From Blastopirellula marina (GTDB taxonomy: Bacteria > Planctomycetota > Planctomycetia > Pirellulales > Thermoguttaceae): a DNA stretch of 33,215 nt. Below, one piece after another: positions 306 through 24,581 of this stretch. Position 1 is the first letter of the stretch. Each line of letters begins with the position of its first letter. The stretch spans positions 1 to 33,215 of the forward strand of contig DYLS01000047.1 of assembly GCA_020721965.1 (NCBI GenBank). Direction: 5' to 3'. The position numbers and the translations under genes were made by a program. A model generated the notes under the pieces. That model did not search any database. It was given only the letters and a program-made list of their open reading frames with translations, and was not told the origin of the DNA.

Positions 306-387
306 GGGGCCGCTGAGCCGCACGATTGCCGTTCTGCGACGTCTTGTCGCTGCGAGATACCGCAAGGTACGTCGATCCGCAGCGTGG

Positions 388-591
388 TACTACAGCGCAA
401 TATCCGCCTGATTGCGAGCTGCGCCCACTGATTGCACGCTGTGCCCACGAATTGGAGATGCGCACACGAATTGCACGACGTGCACACAAATTGCAGATCT
501 GCAAACGGCTTGCAGATCTGCCCAATATCTGTGCGAGACGTTACCATCACCACGAGATATTGAGCCAAGCAAACAACCCTGCGCTGCGGTA
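388..591 (+). repeat. Family-1 inverted-repeat element, copy A (internally expanded)
   Basis: One of seven related elements in the window. The left end reads TACTACAGCGCAA, the right end GCGCTGCGGTA, and the core reads CCATCACCACGAGATATTGA followed by GCCAAGCAAACAACCC. It is 204 bp long against 105-114 bp for the others because its internal part is a six-unit tandem array. Its right end abuts the stop codon of the minus-strand glycoside hydrolase (CTA at 592-594). The flanking tetramers GTGG and CTAG are only a weak match as a target duplication. Confidence 0.75.
411..526 (+). repeat. Tandem repeat, about 20 nt x 6, inside copy A
   Basis: Units begin at 411, 431, 451, 470, 490 and 509, mostly with ATTG. 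Each carries a small palindrome such as GCACGCTGTGC, GCACGACGTGC or TTGCAGATCTGCAA. The other family-1 elements have a single related segment (for example TGCATGATGCGCCCAC) at the same place, so this looks like local expansion of an element-internal sequence. It is not a CRISPR array because there are no unique spacers. Confidence 0.8.
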
Positions 592-1851
592 CTAGGGTTG
601 CATCAAGAAATACATCGGCGCGTCCCTCAGATCCAAGATGGTGCCCTCTCCGGAGGACTGCAACTCACGAGTCTCCTGGCCTAAGTAGTCCACGGCGTGG
701 TACCGGCCGGCGGGCACCTTGGCCGTGACGCGGGCTGTTTGTCCATCCATTTGTGTCCAGGCCGCTAGTGCCCACTTTCCTTCCTTTTCGAAAAGCAGGA
801 CGTGGGCCTGGTCCGCGCTTTCGCCCTCTACGTCCAGGCGTTGCACGAACCGGTAGCCCGACAGCACGCGATTGAGCGTCTGCGCGGCCACGTAGGCAGG
901 CTTGGGGTCGTAAACCGGATCGCGCCCCTCCTGGTACGGAAATGCCACCGTGCCGAAGTGATGTTCCGGCTCCTTCGGATCAGGACCATCGTCGTGCCAG
1001 TCGTACCAAATGGATACCGGAATCCCCTCAGCCAAATTGGTCAACCACTGTCGCGGGAGATACTTTCCCTGGCGATGTTCGTCGTAGTTCTTCCAAGCCG
1101 CCGAAAAGCCCCATTCGCCCGAAATAATGGGAATCGTTTTGCCGGCCGGTGCATACTTGGCAATCAGCTCGCGCAATTTCTGATATTCCGGGATGACCGT
1201 CTCTGGAGCGGTCTGGCGATAAGGATGAACGGATACGGCATCCCAATACTCCAGCAAGCCGGCCTTGAAGCAGTCTTCCAAGAACTTCATGTCGATTTGC
1301 GAAGTGGCAGGGCCAATATAGATTTCACCGGGGGCCTCGCGGTGCAGTGCTTTGCCAACCTCGATAGCCAGGGCGATGTAATCTTGAACATTGGGCTTGG
1401 GCTTCCAAGCGCCGATGTTTGGCTCATTGTACATTTCCCAAAGTATGCCACGACCGGCGAAATGTTTCGCTGCCGCAGCCGCCCAACGTGCAAACGCTTG
1501 CCGCCCTTCCTCCGAATGCGGCGAAAGACCTTCGTCATAGTGGCGATTCGAATAATCCAGGATCAACACGGCTCGGATTCCGTGCTTTTCCAGGTCTTGC
1601 AGCAAGTGGTCGAAGGCGGAAAAGTCGTATGCGCCCTTTTCCAGTTCCGTGCCGCCCCATGAGAAATCCATGCGTATCCACCGGATCCCGGAGGCGGCCA
1701 GCATCTCCATCTCGCCGGGCCTGGCATGGGTAAAGTGGATGTTGGCCCCGAAACCGTCGGGTACGACCGCGGCCGGCCAGGCAATCTCTGCCGAAAGGCC
1801 CAGACTTGTCAGAGCGAGCCAAACACCAACTGTCAGAAACCATCGCATCAT
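592..1851 (-). CDS. Secreted GH-A clan glycoside hydrolase (cellulase-like)
   Basis: This 419-residue protein has an N-terminal signal peptide (MMRWFLTVGVWLALTSLGLS) and a TIM-barrel glycoside hydrolase domain over residues of about 30-335. The motif MYNEPN places the likely acid/base glutamate at E143, and ISGEWG places the likely nucleophile at E246, the spacing expected in clan GH-A (GH5/GH39-like). Other family-typical features are GIRWIRMDFSW near the start of the barrel and AVSVHPY after strand 5. A short beta-rich tail follows. It probably cleaves a plant- or algal-type polysaccharide outside the cytoplasm, but the substrate cannot be read from the sequence. It is divergent from the sugar isomerase/transporter/oxidoreductase genes to its right, which suggests a carbohydrate-use locus. 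The stop codon touches the end of element copy A. Confidence 0.82.
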   Translation of the reverse strand: MMRWFLTVGVWLALTSLGLSAEIAWPAAVVPDGFGANIHFTHARPGEMEMLAASGIRWIRMDFSWGGTELEKGAYDFSAFDHLLQDLEKHGIRAVLILDYSNRHYDEGLSPHSEEGRQAFARWAAAAAKHFAGRGILWEMYNEPNIGAWKPKPNVQDYIALAIEVGKALHREAPGEIYIGPATSQIDMKFLEDCFKAGLLEYWDAVSVHPYRQTAPETVIPEYQKLRELIAKYAPAGKTIPIISGEWGFSAAWKNYDEHRQGKYLPRQWLTNLAEGIPVSIWYDWHDDGPDPKEPEHHFGTVAFPYQEGRDPVYDPKPAYVAAQTLNRVLSGYRFVQRLDVEGESADQAHVLLFEKEGKWALAAWTQMDGQTARVTAKVPAGRYHAVDYLGQETRELQSSGEGTILDLRDAPMYFLMQP

Positions 1852-6551: not shown

Positions 6552-6635
6552 CAGCCCTAGGGCCGCGCGAAACTCAGCCAGTACCAAGCTCCGGGGCGCC
6601 TATCGTCGGCACGATGGGTCGTGACCGGCCGTGGG

Positions 6636-6747
6636 TACCGTAGTGCAATGTCCGCCAAATGGCATGATGTGCCTGGCTTGGATTGCGAGGCATGGTGTCC
6701 CACCACCACAAGATGTTGAGCCAGCCAAACAACCTTGCGATGTAGGG
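6636..6747 (+). repeat. Family-1 inverted-repeat element, copy B
   Basis: This 112-bp copy lies between the convergent oxidoreductase and ftsK genes. The left end is TACCGTAGTGCAATGTCCGC, the right end CTTGCGATGTAGGG, and the core CACCACAAGATGTTGAGCCA is intact. No clear target duplication was found, so it is probably an old insertion. Confidence 0.75.
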
Positions 6748-6793
6748 GTAGAAGTTGCCTCATGCCTTGGGGGTATAAGAGCAATCGCGGGCC

Positions 6794-9535: not shown

Positions 9536-9825
9536 GAATGACCGCCTCGTGGAAGGCAGAGCGAGGTGAGCAGGGATCCCTTGGCCTTCATCGGCACTCA
9601 GAAATGGGCGGAACACCTTTCCAGCGTCTTCCCAGTTAGTCTTCGCGACCCCTTTTCACGGCACGGTCGGCAGGAAAGCGCCGTCCCGAACAGTTTTCCC
9701 GACCACCGTGTTCCAACCGCTGCAACCCGCATTACCGGAACCGCCCCCACCGGATCGGAGCAGGGGCAGCGACTCTTTCAAGCTCGATCCGAGTCTGGAA
9801 TGCAAGCTCCGCTGGCCTGCGGTCG

Positions 9826-9937
9826 TACTACAGTGCAGGGTTGATTGCTTGGCTGGACGTCTTGTGGTGATGCGGCATAACGGCTCCCAATAGATGCTGG
9901 GCACAGCATCCAGTCAGGCAGAGTCTGCGCTGTAGTA
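9826..9937 (-). repeat. Family-1 inverted-repeat element, copy C (reverse orientation)
   Basis: Read on the minus strand it begins TACTACAGCGCAGACT, contains GCATCACCACAAGACG, GCCAAGCAATCAACCC and ends GCACTGTAGTA. It is 112 bp long and lines up with copies A, B, D, E, F and G along its whole length. It sits between divergent ftsK and bcp. Its right-hand (plus-strand) end is repeated in tandem. Confidence 0.8.
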
Positions 9938-9998
9938 CGCAGACTTTGCGCCGTCGTGCGCAGACTCGGCGCTTATATGCAGACTTTAGCGCTGTGGC
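9918..9998 (+). repeat. Tandem repeat, 19-21 nt x 4, of the end of copy C
   Basis: Units start at 9918, 9939, 9960 and 9979 with GCAGAGTCTGCGCTGTAGTA, GCAGACTTTGCGCCGTCGTG, GCAGACTCGGCGC and GCAGACTTTAGCGCTG. The complement of this unit is the left end seen in copies D and F (TACAGCGCAAAGTC), so the array is an amplified element terminus. Confidence 0.8.
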
Positions 9999-15416: not shown

Positions 15417-16598
15417 TCACTCTGCCGCGGCAGGGGCACGCCCTTTGTTTTCGAACCACATCGGGCCGCCCCATTTGCCCGTGACGACCACGTCCAGGTC
15501 GCCGTCTCCGTCCAGGTCCACGACGGGGACGTTCAAGCCAGAACCAATACCCTGGTCGTAAACGATGGTATGCTTGGTCCAGTGGACTTCAGGCGTTCGC
15601 TGAAGCTCGTACCAATACGCGCCCAACGGCGCGAACTCCTCGGGATCACCACCGTTATGGGCCATGAAGCGTTTGCCGGTGACCAGGTCGGGCAGGCCGT
15701 CGCCATTGATGTCGCCCAGGGCGAGCGAATGGGCCTGCGTCCACGATTGGTCGATGACGTGCCGCTTCCAAGAGATTTCATTGCCCTGCCGCTGCTGCTC
15801 ATACCAGAAGATGCCATACTTGTGGGCCGAGCTGGTCAAGACGTCGTTCCATCCGTCGCCGTTGATGTCGAGGACGAGGATTTGGGGGGTATGGTCGGAA
15901 GTGCCCTCTTCGGCGCCGCCCAGCGCCCAGGGGTGCTCGATCCAGTTTCCGGTGCGCGGATCGGCCGGGGCCTCGAACCATGCCTCCGGGCGGAGGAAGT
16001 CGGGCCTGCCGTCGCCGTTGATGTCTCCCACGCCCGCCCCGAAGTTCATCGGCTTTTCTCTAATGGTGTGCCGTTGCCAGCGAATCGAGCCATTGTCGCG
16101 GACGACCTCCCACCACGTGGAGATGCGGACATCGGGAATGACCTCAGCGGCGATCCCGTCGCCGTCCAAATCGGCGATCTGGGCGGTCTCGTGGTTTTCG
16201 CTAACGTCGATGACGGTCCGCGGCCACATCGGCCCGTCGAAGCCAATGTTGCGATGCCAATCCAGGCACTTCTCGAACCAGTCGCACGAGACGACGTCGA
16301 TTTTGCCGTCGCCGTCCACGTCGAGCGGCAAGTCCGCGAAATTCCACATGTAGCCCTTGCCTTGCTCGTCGACGCTGCCTTTGAGTTCACGGATTTTGTG
16401 AGCAGTCCAATCGGGGGCCAGGTAAACGAACGGCCCCGCCACCACGTCGAGTTTGCCGTCGCCATTGAAGTCGGCCACGCCGCAGGCCTCGCTGCGATAA
16501 TTGCCGATCCGGTGAGCTTCGAACACAAGCTCTCCCCCGAAGATCGGCGTGGCCGCTGGGAAAGCAATTAGCAGGGCGGTTGCGAAGGATTTCCACAT
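15417..16598 (-). CDS. Secreted FG-GAP/VCBS beta-propeller protein
   Basis: The start is placed at ATG 16598 (MWKSFATALLIAF), 8 nt after GGAGA; an in-frame TTG at 16622 lacks support. The 393-residue product has a signal peptide ending near TPIFGG. It then has seven calcium-loop motifs of the type DxNGDGxxD (ADFNGDGKLD, DVDGDGKID, ADLDGDGIA, DINGDGRPD, DINGDGWND, DINGDGLPD, DLDGDGDLD), enough for a seven-bladed propeller. Blades carry aromatic-rich segments such as WFENKG and WYELQ. Such proteins are exported and abundant in planctomycetes; they may bind polysaccharide or other proteins, with no enzymatic residues evident. The third motif lacks its final Asp. Confidence 0.85.
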   Translation of the reverse strand: MWKSFATALLIAFPAATPIFGGELVFEAHRIGNYRSEACGVADFNGDGKLDVVAGPFVYLAPDWTAHKIRELKGSVDEQGKGYMWNFADLPLDVDGDGKIDVVSCDWFEKCLDWHRNIGFDGPMWPRTVIDVSENHETAQIADLDGDGIAAEVIPDVRISTWWEVVRDNGSIRWQRHTIREKPMNFGAGVGDINGDGRPDFLRPEAWFEAPADPRTGNWIEHPWALGGAEEGTSDHTPQILVLDINGDGWNDVLTSSAHKYGIFWYEQQRQGNEISWKRHVIDQSWTQAHSLALGDINGDGLPDLVTGKRFMAHNGGDPEEFAPLGAYWYELQRTPEVHWTKHTIVYDQGIGSGLNVPVVDLDGDGDLDVVVTGKWGGPMWFENKGRAPAAAE

Positions 16599-16673
16599 GA
16601 CGCTGTCTCCAAAGGTCTCCAATGGGTTGAAAAAACAAAACGTTGGGAGGTTCCTGCACTTACTTTACGAGGC

Positions 16674-16771
16674 GGGATCTGCGATGCGGTCTCTGCGCTG
16701 CGGTTTGTGGGATGTGCTCTGTGGGATGTGATCACTACGATGTGGTCTCTGCGATGTGGTCTCTGCGATGT
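16674..16771 (+). repeat. Tandem repeat, exactly 14 nt x 7
   Basis: Seven units of 14 nt run without a gap. Consensus GGTCTCTGCGATGT; variants include GGTTTGTGGGATGT and GCTCTGTGGGATGT, and the last two units are identical. The array forms the 3' end of the flavodoxin-like reading frame on the minus strand, adding a repetitive Arg/His/Ser-rich tail. Confidence 0.92.
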
Positions 16772-17178
16772 GGCGGCGTGCCTTGAAGCGACGCGTCACT
16801 TCGGCGATACGGCGCCCGGCGGCCTCAGCCGTTTCCAAGTCGCCGGTGCCAGGGGCTTCTTCGGAGGGCACTTGGAAGCTCGCAGCCATCGGCCCGACAA
16901 ATGAGCCGACGCGGTTTTGCGCGTCCGGTCCTGGCCCTTGCAGGGTGTACATGCCGTCGGGTCGATTGGCGGCAGGCAATATCCCGAGGCCGACATAGAT
17001 CATACCATGCTGGAGGGCGTTGATCATCAGGCCGACCAAGGTGTTGAGCTTATCGCCGGAAAATGAACTGGAACTGGTGAAGGCGCCAGACATTTTATCA
17101 CGCCAGGATTGCGTAAACCACTTTTCTACTCCAGCTTCCAGGAATTGCTTCATCTCGGCCGACATATTGCCCATTTAG

Positions 17179-17292
17179 TCCTACAGCGCAAAGTCGGTGT
17201 GCCTGCATGATGCGCCCACCATACGTTCCAAACCATTCAATGCGAGGTTTCCCATCACCGCAAGATGTTGAGAACAACCCAGCGCTGTAGTG
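17179..17292 (+). repeat. Family-1 inverted-repeat element, copy D (in flavodoxin gene)
   Basis: This 114-bp copy starts TCCTACAGCGCAAAGTC, has the core CATCACCGCAAGATGTTGAG and ends CAGCGCTGTAGTG. The flanking tetramers are TTAG (17175-17178) and TGAG (17293-17296), which fit a 4-bp target duplication with one later change. It is nearly identical to copy F apart from a 9-bp insertion (near 17230) and a few substitutions, so both are probably recent. Confidence 0.88.
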
Positions 17293-17526
17293 TGAGGTAG
17301 GGCACCCGAACGCGATGGCATCGGCGGTGTCCAGATTGTCCAAATCTTCGATGGCCTGCTGGGTCGCCCACAGCTCGGCCTTTGCGCCGGGGACGCTGTT
17401 GGCTTTGCGGGAACCGGCCTCGACCTGACGCTGCGTATGGCCAAAACGGCTGTGATACACAACGACAACCCGAACCTCCATAGCCTCGTCCAGGGACAGC
17501 ATGGGGTATTTTTCCCTTTCAGGGAC

Positions 17527-17630: not shown

Positions 17631-19052
17631 ATGTTGAAAAGGCGATCCCTGGTCGCGGTCCTTGCGTTGGGGACCGTTGCGTTGGCGTGGCCGTCGCTTG
17701 CCGCGGACATCGAGATCGAACTGTATCCCGAGCTGGACCTTTTCGGGAATCAAATTGAGGTTGTGCAGGGTTACCAATGGGGCAGCGAAATGGCGCTGGC
17801 CTTTGGAATCTACGACACCGGGGCCAGCGTCTTGACGCTATCGGCCACAGACCGAGCCGCTTTCGAGCTGCAAGGCGCAACCGTGCCCATCAAAGTGCCG
17901 GGAGGGGCCCAGGCCGATGCCGTGGACGGCGTTGTGGTGGGCGATGTTTCCGTACCGATGACGTTCTGGGCCGACGGTTTGCACGCGGTGACCATGAACT
18001 GGTCGGCAGTTTCCGGGGACATGGAATTCAGCTATGACGTCTCGGCTGGCGCCACGGTCCCCGGGGTTCAGGTATTCGTTGGAACCGACACCGGCAGCCC
18101 CCAATTGCCGAACATCGCGGGAACGCCCATTCACTTGGGTACGTTGACGGGAAACACGCAAAGCCCGGCTGCGAAGATCGACATGCTTGGGTACGCGCTC
18201 GACCTCGGAGATTTCTTTGCGGACGATCCGTTCTTGGGGCCGCTTTACGATGGCATCGTGGTTTACATGCCGGACGTTTCCTTCGTCGCGGCGGGCCTGC
18301 AATTGGCGGGGACGCCGGGCGTGACGACGGACCCCGTGCGGATTCCATTGTCCTTGTGGGGACCCACCAATCACCCCAACCCCGGCGATGATGTGACGGT
18401 GGCCCCCAATCCTGTGCAAGCGATGGTTACGCTCCAGGAGCAACTGGCTACGATCACCGATGCAACATTCCTGTTCGACACAGGCGCCGCGGTGAGCGTG
18501 ATCTCCACCACTCTGGCTCAGCAACTGGGGCTGGATTTGGGGGCTCCCGAAACCACGATCGATATCGTCGGCGCGGCAGGCGCTCCGGTAAGCGTGCCCG
18601 GCTTTACCTTGGACAGCCTCTCTGTGCCCATCGACAGCGACTTCGATGGGGTGATAGACGGGGTGCTCCGCTTTTTGAACCCTTCCGTATTCGTCCTCGA
18701 TCTCGTGGAAGGGTTGGACGGCATCCTGGGCATGAATCTGTGGAATCCCGCCAAGGACATGCTGTACGATCCCTTCGATCCCCTGGGACCATCGCTCCAG
18801 GTCTCATTCCTGACAGCGGCTAGAGAACTCCCTTCAGAAGAAGAGACAGAGCTGCTGCAAGGGTTGGCGGAAGCCGATCCGATGTTCGGCCAACTCTTGG
18901 GGATCAGAACCGGCCCGCTGTCGTTCCCCCGATTTCAAATGCAGAGCGCGGGTGACGTCGTACCGGAGCCGGGGAGCCTGGCCCTGCTCATTTTGGGCGG
19001 CGGGGCGCTGGTCACCGCGGTACGACGGCGGCGCCGGCTCGTGGTCGATTAA
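17631..19052 (+). CDS. PEP-CTERM-anchored protein with two aspartic-protease DTG motifs
   Basis: The start is placed at ATG 17631, 6 nt after GAGGAGA. The 473-residue product has a signal peptide (LVAVLALGTVALAWPSLAA). Two retropepsin/pepsin-like repeats follow: the first has FGIYDTGASVLTLS with D62, the second TFLFDTGAAVSVIS with D283. Each is followed by a hydrophobic strand region, and a hydrophobic-hydrophobic-glycine segment such as LDGILGMNLW closes the second. A C-terminal PEP-CTERM sorting signal is clear: VPEPGSLALLILGGGALV followed by a basic RRRRR run. Proteins with this tail are expected to be processed at the membrane by an exosortase. It is likely an exported aspartic endopeptidase of the cell surface, although activity is inferred from the paired DTG motifs alone. 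Element copy E begins at the base after its stop codon. Confidence 0.82.
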   Translation: MLKRRSLVAVLALGTVALAWPSLAADIEIELYPELDLFGNQIEVVQGYQWGSEMALAFGIYDTGASVLTLSATDRAAFELQGATVPIKVPGGAQADAVDGVVVGDVSVPMTFWADGLHAVTMNWSAVSGDMEFSYDVSAGATVPGVQVFVGTDTGSPQLPNIAGTPIHLGTLTGNTQSPAAKIDMLGYALDLGDFFADDPFLGPLYDGIVVYMPDVSFVAAGLQLAGTPGVTTDPVRIPLSLWGPTNHPNPGDDVTVAPNPVQAMVTLQEQLATITDATFLFDTGAAVSVISTTLAQQLGLDLGAPETTIDIVGAAGAPVSVPGFTLDSLSVPIDSDFDGVIDGVLRFLNPSVFVLDLVEGLDGILGMNLWNPAKDMLYDPFDPLGPSLQVSFLTAARELPSEEETELLQGLAEADPMFGQLLGIRTGPLSFPRFQMQSAGDVVPEPGSLALLILGGGALVTAVRRRRRLVVD

Positions 19053-19163
19053 CACGACAGCGCATCATCTGCCTGATTGCATGATGGACTCGGCATCTGT
19101 TGCGATGCGTTGTGTCCCGTTGCCACGAATGGTGATCCAAGCAAGCAACTCGGCGCTGTAGGA
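19053..19163 (+). repeat. Family-1 inverted-repeat element, copy E
   Basis: This 111-bp copy starts CACGACAGCGCATCATCTGC, runs through GTCCCGTTGCCACGAATGGT and ends CGGCGCTGTAGGA. It begins right after the TAA stop of the PEP-CTERM gene; the left tetramer is TTAA, the right one GTAG, so the duplication is only partly recognisable. The core is the most diverged among the seven copies. Confidence 0.75.
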
Positions 19164-19277
19164 GTAGAGGCTGCCGTGAAAATCGCCAGCCCTCCATCTC
19201 CTGGCACCGCAATCGCGTAGTGGTTCACAGGGGTTCTCGTGCCTGTCAAACGGCTCGCCTTCCTGTCCTCGCCCTTC

Positions 19278-19369
19278 TGTCATTTCGAGCGAAGCGAGAA
19301 ATCTTGCGAAGCGAAAGGTCTTCTCGAAAAGGTTTAGATTTCTCCTCGCTGGCGCTCGTCGAAATGACA
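19278..19369 (+). repeat. Palindromic GTCATTTCGAGCGAAGCGAG-type dispersed repeat
   Basis: The left arm TGTCATTTCGAGCGAAGCGA plus GAAATCT (19278-19304) is mirrored by AGATTTCTC, CTCGCTGGCGCTCGTCG and AAATGACA (19336-19369). The whole can fold into one long hairpin. The same motif type (GTCATTCCGAGCGAAGCGAG) is known as a scattered repeat in many bacterial phyla. It sits between element copy E and the truncated methionine-synthase-like gene. Confidence 0.8.
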
Positions 19370-19383
19370 TTCCGTTGCACACT

Positions 19384-19863
19384 CTAAGGAATCTCAGGAA
19401 CCTCTGATGAACCCTCGGGTACGCCTGAACAATCCTCGTTGTTTCCCAAATCTTTTCCGTTATAGCTCAGCCGTGAACGGTTACCGATCGGCCAGCGCCA
19501 GCCCGTGTAGATCTCGTGCAGCAGTGTGCCGGCCGGGTATCTCAACCATGGAGATCGGGTCTCCTCGGATTGAAGCAAGTCTCCCTCCAGACCCTTCCAT
19601 CGCTGAAGCGGATAGTGGTGCCAGGATCGGTCCGCGAAGTCCTCGTCGCAGTGGAAGTCGCCGTGGGTCACCAGGTCCAGCCCGGCCCGCTCCTGATCAC
19701 TGATCACGACAGCCAGGGCATCCTGGAACTTTTCGCGGAACCGAACATCCATCATGCACGTGTCCAGCGGCCGTCCCCACATGCTGACGTCGAACCAGCG
19801 GGGGCGGGGGAACGATCCGGTGGTGGTGCACGGCAACATCAAGTCTTTGGTCGCGGTGAACAT
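19384..19863 (-). pseudogene. Truncated cobalamin-independent methionine synthase-like gene
   Basis: ATG 19863 is preceded by GGAGG at 8-nt spacing, so the 5' end is intact. Residues 9-120 match the N-terminal part of MetE/UroD-superfamily proteins: MLPCTTTGSFPRPRWF, the VTHGDFHCDEDFA segment and HHYPLQRWKGLEG. After TGWRWP the sequence loses similarity and stops at 159 residues, whereas relatives have about 340-400. The zinc-binding C-terminal half (His, Cys, Cys) is absent, so the product cannot be an active methyltransferase. No matching C-terminal fragment is visible downstream before the palindromic repeat, which points to a deletion. Confidence 0.75.
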
Positions 19864-22007: not shown

Positions 22008-22208
22008 ACCTGCGAAGAGAGCACTGCGTAACCTGCAAGGAGAGTACTCCATAACCTGCAAAGAGAATCTTGCTTAATCTTACAGCGCAAAGTCGGTGTG
22101 CCTGCATGATGCGCCCACCATACGTTTCAATGCGTGGTTTCCCATCACCACAAGATGTTGAGATCAACCCAGGGCTGTAGTGTTAACCTGCAAAGAAAGG
22201 TGCTAATC
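22008..22208 (+). repeat. 23-nt tandem repeat x 4, split by element copy F
   Basis: Units at 22008-22030, 22031-22053 and 22054-22076 start ACCTGCRARGAGAG and are exactly 23 nt apart. The fourth unit, ACCTGCAAAGAAAGG..., is at 22186-22208 beyond the inserted element. Removing the element and one TTAA puts it in exact phase, so the repeat is older than the insertion. Confidence 0.9.
22078..22182 (+). repeat. Family-1 inverted-repeat element, copy F (TTAA duplication)
   Basis: This 105-bp copy starts TCTTACAGCGCAAAGTCGGT, has the core CATCACCACAAGATGTTGAG and ends AGGGCTGTAGTG. It is flanked by a perfect TTAA duplication (22074-22077 and 22183-22186). It is the cleanest example for defining the ends of the family: two bases outside the CTACAGCGC-type inverted repeat on either side. 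Confidence 0.93.
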
Positions 22209-23886: not shown

Positions 23887-23898
23887 CTCGCCGCTCCG

Positions 23899-24010
23899 TC
23901 CAACAGCGCAAGTTTGCTTGCTTGGCTCAGCTTCTTGCCGTGACGGCACATGACGCCCCGCAACCCATGCCGCGCACATCGTGCAACCAGGCGGACTTTG
24001 CGGAACAGCA
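23899..24010 (-). repeat. Family-1 inverted-repeat element, copy G (reverse orientation)
   Basis: This 112-bp copy begins 12 bases after the rimO stop. On the minus strand it reads CGCAAAGTCCGCCTGGTTGC, later CGTCACGGCAAGAAGCTGAG and GCCAAGCAAGCAAACTTGCG, ending CTGTTGGA. The left inverted repeat is damaged. No clear target duplication remains. Confidence 0.7.
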
Positions 24011-24581
24011 TCAGGAATTATGGGCAGATGACCATAGCTGCCGCTCGAACGGCAGCGTGCAGGCCCCGAGAATGCCGGCAGGAGGGAAAGGCGGGCCTTT
24101 TCAAGCCCGGATTTCGACGACACGAAGGGCTGGCTGCATCCCAGCTGTCATGGATATCTCCGGGGTCTATCTCCGCCGCAAACCGCCAACGGCGCGCCGT
24201 AAATAGAATAACGGCGGGGGCGGGTCACGTGGCTGTCTCCCCTGAGTGGCAAGGAGCGGCACGCAACGTACCGCTCCCGCCCTCAGGCAAATCAAAGCCC
24301 CACCGAGAAGCGCTCGCCGGAGCGGCCGACCCAGAAACCGCATCTTCCGACAAGCATCATGCTTCGACCCCAGGAGGGAGGGCTGCGTCAGGCTCCCGCA
24401 AACCTGGACGCAATCGGTGGGGCTTCCCGCTGGCTCCTTTCTGTTCCGTGGGTTTCTTCGTACCCGCCCTTGTTTCTGCTGTCCCTGGTGCCCGTTCGCC
24501 TGCCTTCCGTTCCCAAACCGAGCGCGTCATCTTTGAGCTGGGGGTAAATTGCAAGGTCCAGGAACCGTCGTCGCTAATCCG
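24011..24581. other. Convergent rimO-murE-like intergenic region
   Basis: This 570-base spacer lies between convergent 3' ends. It has two hairpins: CGGGCCTTTTCAAGCCCG near 24093-24110, and a two-tier structure at 24241-24287. A 221-codon open frame from 23950 runs through element copy G and this region, but it has no ribosome site or recognisable domain and is rejected as a gene. Confidence 0.55.
24241..24287 (+). other. Two-tier hairpin in the rimO-murE-like spacer
   Basis: The outer stem CCTGAG/CTCAGG encloses the inner stem GGAGCGG/CCGCTCC with an 11-base loop. There is no T-run, so termination is only a possibility. Confidence 0.45.

Follow-up and report, generated by a model that had tools for sequence, protein, structure and literature searches.

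A 114-bp MITE-like element inserted in a flavodoxin-type gene of Thermogutta

Introduction

MITEs are non-autonomous DNA transposons of about 50–500 bp that are dispersed and without coding capacity. Correia/NEMIS, ERIC and similar bacterial MITEs are about 100–200 bp long, contain no open reading frame, carry terminal inverted repeats and occur in tens to hundreds of copies, with up to 711 copies of ERIC in Photorhabdus (PMC10969869). The family described here is alike in these properties, but differs by its terminal sequence TNCTACAGCGC and its 4-bp NTAN target duplication. Likewise, the Chunjie MITE of Geobacter uraniireducens is, as the present family, a short, mostly intergenic non-coding element with terminal inverted repeats and direct repeats, and one of its copies disrupts an operon (PMC10969869). 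This likeness is one of description alone, and the Chunjie MITE differs in its length of 235 bp and its unrelated host. The IS5 family, of which IS711 is a member, has a 4-bp YTAR/NTAN target duplication. For IS711 of Brucella the target consensus is YTAR (PMC2266754), a target shared by most copies of the present family, whereas IS711 duplicates TA only and the present family duplicates four bases. A literature search found no report of MITEs in Thermogutta or close relatives.

We analyzed a stretch of 33,215 nt, termed the window, which is contig C32 of a 4.95-Mb genome of the genus Thermogutta assembled in 380 contigs. It contains seven copies of a MITE family that is undescribed but belongs to a well-known kind, and one of them, copy D, is a 114-bp element that we conclude with a probability of about 94% to have inserted in and inactivated a flavodoxin-type gene. 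Gene disruption of this sort has close precedents; MITE insertions in genes are already well known, and that of copy D is well documented but ordinary. Given an intact sister gene, an empty site and measurable decay, the repeat becomes a directional event, and fixing the element ends and the target rule for the whole family makes other copies annotatable and a search for the transposase possible.

Results

The disrupted flavodoxin/WrbA-like gene lies on the minus strand, where its 5' part (17293–17502, 70 codons) reads MLSLDEAMEVRVVVVYHSRFGHT...AIAFGCPTS from 17502 to 17293 before entering element sequence, and its 3' part (16665–17174, 169 codons) resumes from MGNMSAEMKQ and ends in a lineage-specific C-terminal tail. 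Between the two lies the inserted copy D (17179–17292, plus strand, 114 bp), a non-coding, MITE-like element, for which the alignment of copies delimits a left terminal inverted repeat TCCTACAGCGC (17179–17189, plus strand) and a right one, CACTACAGCGC (17282–17292, minus strand; GCGCTGTAGTG on the plus strand). Based on the target statistics of the family, the flanking tetramers are the two copies of a 4-bp target duplication, the left one now TTAG (17175–17178, plus strand; coding strand CTAA) and the right one now TGAG (17293–17296, plus strand; coding strand CTCA). Removal of 17175–17292 (118 bp) with the TGAG copy kept yielded a stop-free 720-nt frame of 239 codons plus stop, confirming to the base the first-pass annotation, which had proposed a disrupted gene whose frame is restored by virtual excision. 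Its statement that only the TGAG copy leaves sense codons also held, as keeping TTAG in its place introduces an in-frame TAA, and read-through of the 114 bp in the gene frame meets several stops. Neither half contains another frameshift and both frames are open.

The NCBIfam model NF002999 matched the 3' half with an E-value of 1e-10 and the intact orthologue with 1.5e-26, the latter at 93.5 bits and thus below the curated cut-off of 141 for WrbA. As the FMN_red and Flavodoxin_1 scores exceed their cut-offs, assignment as a flavodoxin-fold FMN enzyme is safe, whereas assignment as WrbA proper is not. Downstream of the disrupted gene, an FG-GAP repeat gene (15417–16622, minus strand) was identified with Pfam and by a blastn match in contig L049 (2078–2454) of the congener Thermogutta sp. 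AS27yjCOA_190 (G003). The C-terminal tail of the disrupted gene is formed by a 14-bp minisatellite with 6.9 copies (16678–16773), which is absent from the G003 orthologue and lengthens the C-terminus by ~30 codons relative to this congener.

The G003 orthologue is uninterrupted, open over 203 codons, 80% identical and followed by the same FG-GAP gene. Its junction in L049 reads CCT ACG TAC ATG GGC AAT ATG (PTYMGNM) and neither holds an insert nor lacks a residue, corresponding to a length difference of 118 bp between the studied locus and this empty site, which within the genus was observed in this one congener. The empty site that the first-pass annotation had anticipated in a close relative is thus present, but the tetramer there is GTAC, with the Tyr codon TAC, and not TGAG/CTCA. 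Among 20 orthologous loci in GTDB genomes, 18 were readable across the site, all of them uninterrupted and all carrying Tyr (TAC/TAT); as these include the G003 contig once more, they amount to 17 further orthologues. The TY(M/I)G motif is continuous over the junction in loci of many phyla, so that two normally separate genes, with the same 114 bp between them in orthologues, are ruled out. No orthologue was detected in the congeneric genomes G001 and G002, indicating a patchy distribution of the gene among its members. In L049 we also observed a second palindromic repeat (GGACTTTTGCAAA ... TTTGCAAAAGTCC), which lies upstream of the intact gene.

Copy D belongs to an abundant family with the terminal inverted repeats at both ends of its copies. 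A DNA search at E≤1e-3 yielded 41 copies in the host genome, and an iterated profile 174 hits without overlap in a 1.09-Mb sample, of which they make up 1.6%, a density that is overestimated because the contigs were picked for containing hits. Genome-wide, the left end CTACAGCGCAAAGTC occurred 245 times with ≤2 mismatches versus 25 times for a reversed-pattern control. Most copies are about 105–130 bp long; by core-to-core length, copies of the young group span 101 bp and those of the older group 108 bp. Besides copy D, the window contains copies B (6635–6754), E (19043–19168) and F (22078–22182, flanked by TTAA/TTAA) on the plus strand and copies C (9823–9938) and G (23894–24016) on the minus strand, all of the same family. 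Copy A (384–597, plus strand), recovered by the nhmmer scan as two half matches, is a long variant of ~214 bp, ~100 bp longer than the other copies and with internal repeats of a ATTGCAGATCTGC-like unit. Copy D is 96% identical to a sister copy in the same genome (C338:10471–10587), and among the aligned copies a 9-bp internal insertion is common only to these two.

The median open span around copies was 157 codons versus 440 at random places, indicating that copies lie in less gene-like DNA and that a gene is an exceptional insertion site. In a nested pair, inspected by eye, the inner copy is flanked by TTAA/TTAA and the outer one by CTAA/CTAA. A 26-base family pattern had no exact match outside this lineage in GTDB contigs and IMG/VR. 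A sister family of 118–120 bp with the ends TACCACAGCGCAG / CTGCGCTGTAGTA is found in the congeners G002, whose genome is closed (4,810,751 bp), and G001, with six and one copies, respectively, at E≤1e-3; some of its copies are flanked by TTAG/TTAG, in line with the NTAN targets of the present family, and its core has diverged from it. Two further repeats were noted: the second palindromic repeat lies nested in first-family copies (L099 18905–19220, L072 7285–7590, L121 7910–8366), and a third dispersed repeat of ~320 bp (window 19268–19481; L127 14831–15230) occurs in many sampled contigs, once within a first-family copy.

The target duplication was assessed on 94 copies against 10,000 shuffles, with the tetramers placed two bases away from the core at either end. 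Identical flanking tetramers were found for 23 of the 94 copies versus 4.3 expected (largest shuffle 14), and the two outer tetramer positions matched in 65/94 and 63/94 copies versus about 36 expected. Where both flanks have TA, the outer bases also agreed (27/32 and 24/32 copies versus 13 and 11 expected), showing that four bases are duplicated and not TA alone. In 34 copies the two flanks have the same central dinucleotide, which was TA in 32, TG in two and GA in none. Together with the G003 empty site and the uninterrupted orthologues in many phyla, these statistics bear out the insertion with a 4-bp duplication.

After the insertion, the gene changed faster at conserved residues. Of 73 alignment columns that do not vary among 11 other orthologues, nine differ in the disrupted gene, with eight the safer figure since one is the start-region Met, and the motif Tyr is among the residues lost, whereas one column differs in G003. 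Where the disrupted gene and G003 carry different residues, the derived one lies in the former at 19 sites and in G003 at eight. This excess loss of invariant residues identifies the disrupted gene as a recent pseudogene. The pairwise values of dN (0.16) and dS (1.24) against G003 stem mostly from the time before the insertion.

No match to the element was found in Rfam, and RNAalifold over 30 copies yielded no common base pair. Single copies folded at z-scores of −2.9 to +0.4, with the stem of copy D at about −2.7 to −2.9. The element is best called a MITE, as it is non-coding, lacks an Rfam match and shares no conserved fold; the family is short and dispersed, with terminal inverted repeats, a fixed 4-bp target duplication with a TA center and an empty site in G003.

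Discussion

Which tetramer was duplicated can be approached from both the gene and the family. The first-pass annotation held that the element had entered a TGAG target, of which TTAG is a mutated copy, because a sense codon (Ser) results. This choice is disfavored by the Tyr in all orthologues and by the absence of GA centers among the 34 copies with the same center in both flanks. On the coding strand, CTAC/CTAT restores PTYMGN in an open frame, and as it agrees with the Tyr of the orthologues and with the targets that the family prefers, it is the most likely original tetramer, a normal NTAN target of which both flanking copies would have mutated since. In that case the Ser codon TCA would be a product of decay after the insertion. 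Alternatively, the gene may have been dead already, its Tyr codon having changed from TAC to TAA and so created a CTAA target into which the element inserted, with TGAG as the mutated copy. Such an order of events calls for the fewest base changes, two, against three in eight for CTAC/CTAT and three plus a non-canonical target for CTCA, and CTAA/TTAG is a favored target of the family; it requires, however, an earlier nonsense mutation at exactly that codon of an otherwise open frame, and we regard it as unlikely, though a serious contender. We therefore infer the order CTAC/CTAT, CTAA and, last, CTCA. The two flanks are not identical to one another, nor probably to the original, with up to three of eight bases changed; this exceeds the expectation for an element that shares 96% identity with its nearest sister.

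Three further readings question the disruption itself. The gene might still be functional, with the element excised from the transcript or bypassed by ribosomes, or with the halves acting as separate polypeptides, as would suit the open frames in both halves, the lack of another frameshift and an ATG of the second half directly after the left flank, exactly at the junction. This ATG, however, encodes the Met that nearly all orthologues have in their TYMG motif, the element shows no intron-like or conserved structure, and the loss of nine of 73 invariant residues against one in G003, the motif Tyr included, makes a functional gene very improbable. Even less credit is due to the 114 bp being an old structured RNA or a regulatory intergenic repeat between two separate genes. 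The stem that copy D forms from its terminal inverted repeats and the position of most other copies in less gene-like stretches would suit such a role, but other copies fold near z = 0 with no consensus structure over the 30 aligned, Rfam holds no counterpart, and the orthologues are one gene whose site is empty, which upholds the first-pass annotation in its preference for an insertion. The least probable is a chimeric join made by the assembly at a repeat. The genome is indeed in 380 contigs and the repeat abundant, but the unique sequences on either side come from one gene, are correctly ordered and spaced, and retain a 4-bp duplication that has decayed; decay of the gene is seen independently as well, and typical reads are longer than 114 bp.

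The results above show that copy D was inserted into the gene, together with its exact length, its terminal repeats and the 4-bp duplication, whereas the enzyme and the transposition chemistry are inferred. Most likely, a DDE-type transposase acting in trans recognized the terminal repeats of copy D, and insertion into an NTAN tetramer within the conserved PTYMGN motif of this quinone-reductase gene of the flavodoxin/WrbA-like type duplicated 4 bp. The gain of 118 bp shifts the frame and introduces stops, cutting the protein inside the flavodoxin fold. Since then the gene has drifted under relaxed constraint, and both target copies have probably mutated.

An autonomous partner with matching ends was not found in the host genome among four transposase families searched and in the part read directly. 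DDE_5, DDE_Tnp_1_2 and DDE_Tnp_4 had no matches there, and the DDE_Tnp_1 matches in contigs C372 and C72 are only fragments whose ends differ from those of the family. The family has the 4-bp YTAR/NTAN duplication of the IS5 type, and these targets point towards IS5-like enzymes. Its ends do not follow the same type: the host transposase fragments lack them, and the element of the genus carrying a DDE_Tnp_4 transposase, in G001, ends in GGAACCTCTGCACAA, unlike the terminal inverted repeats of the present family. As no partner with family ends emerged for any of the four transposase families, mobilization by a transposase lineage not yet linked to MITEs, the family having risen to hundreds of copies in a single species of Thermogutta, with related sister elements in congeners, is conceivable but doubtful.

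Larger elements were also considered as a source. Longer variants of up to ~540 bp contain other dispersed repeats and no recognized transposase, and unpaired family ends, examined within 4 kb, did not reveal a convincing larger element. G002 also has larger elements, which end in sequence similar to TACTACAGCGCAA, at L162 2517–2912 (about 396 bp), L163 about 2800–2985 and L170 1500–1690; without a long internal open reading frame they were rejected as the autonomous partner. They share 120–190 bp inside the right end and are possibly remnants of a bigger parent element.
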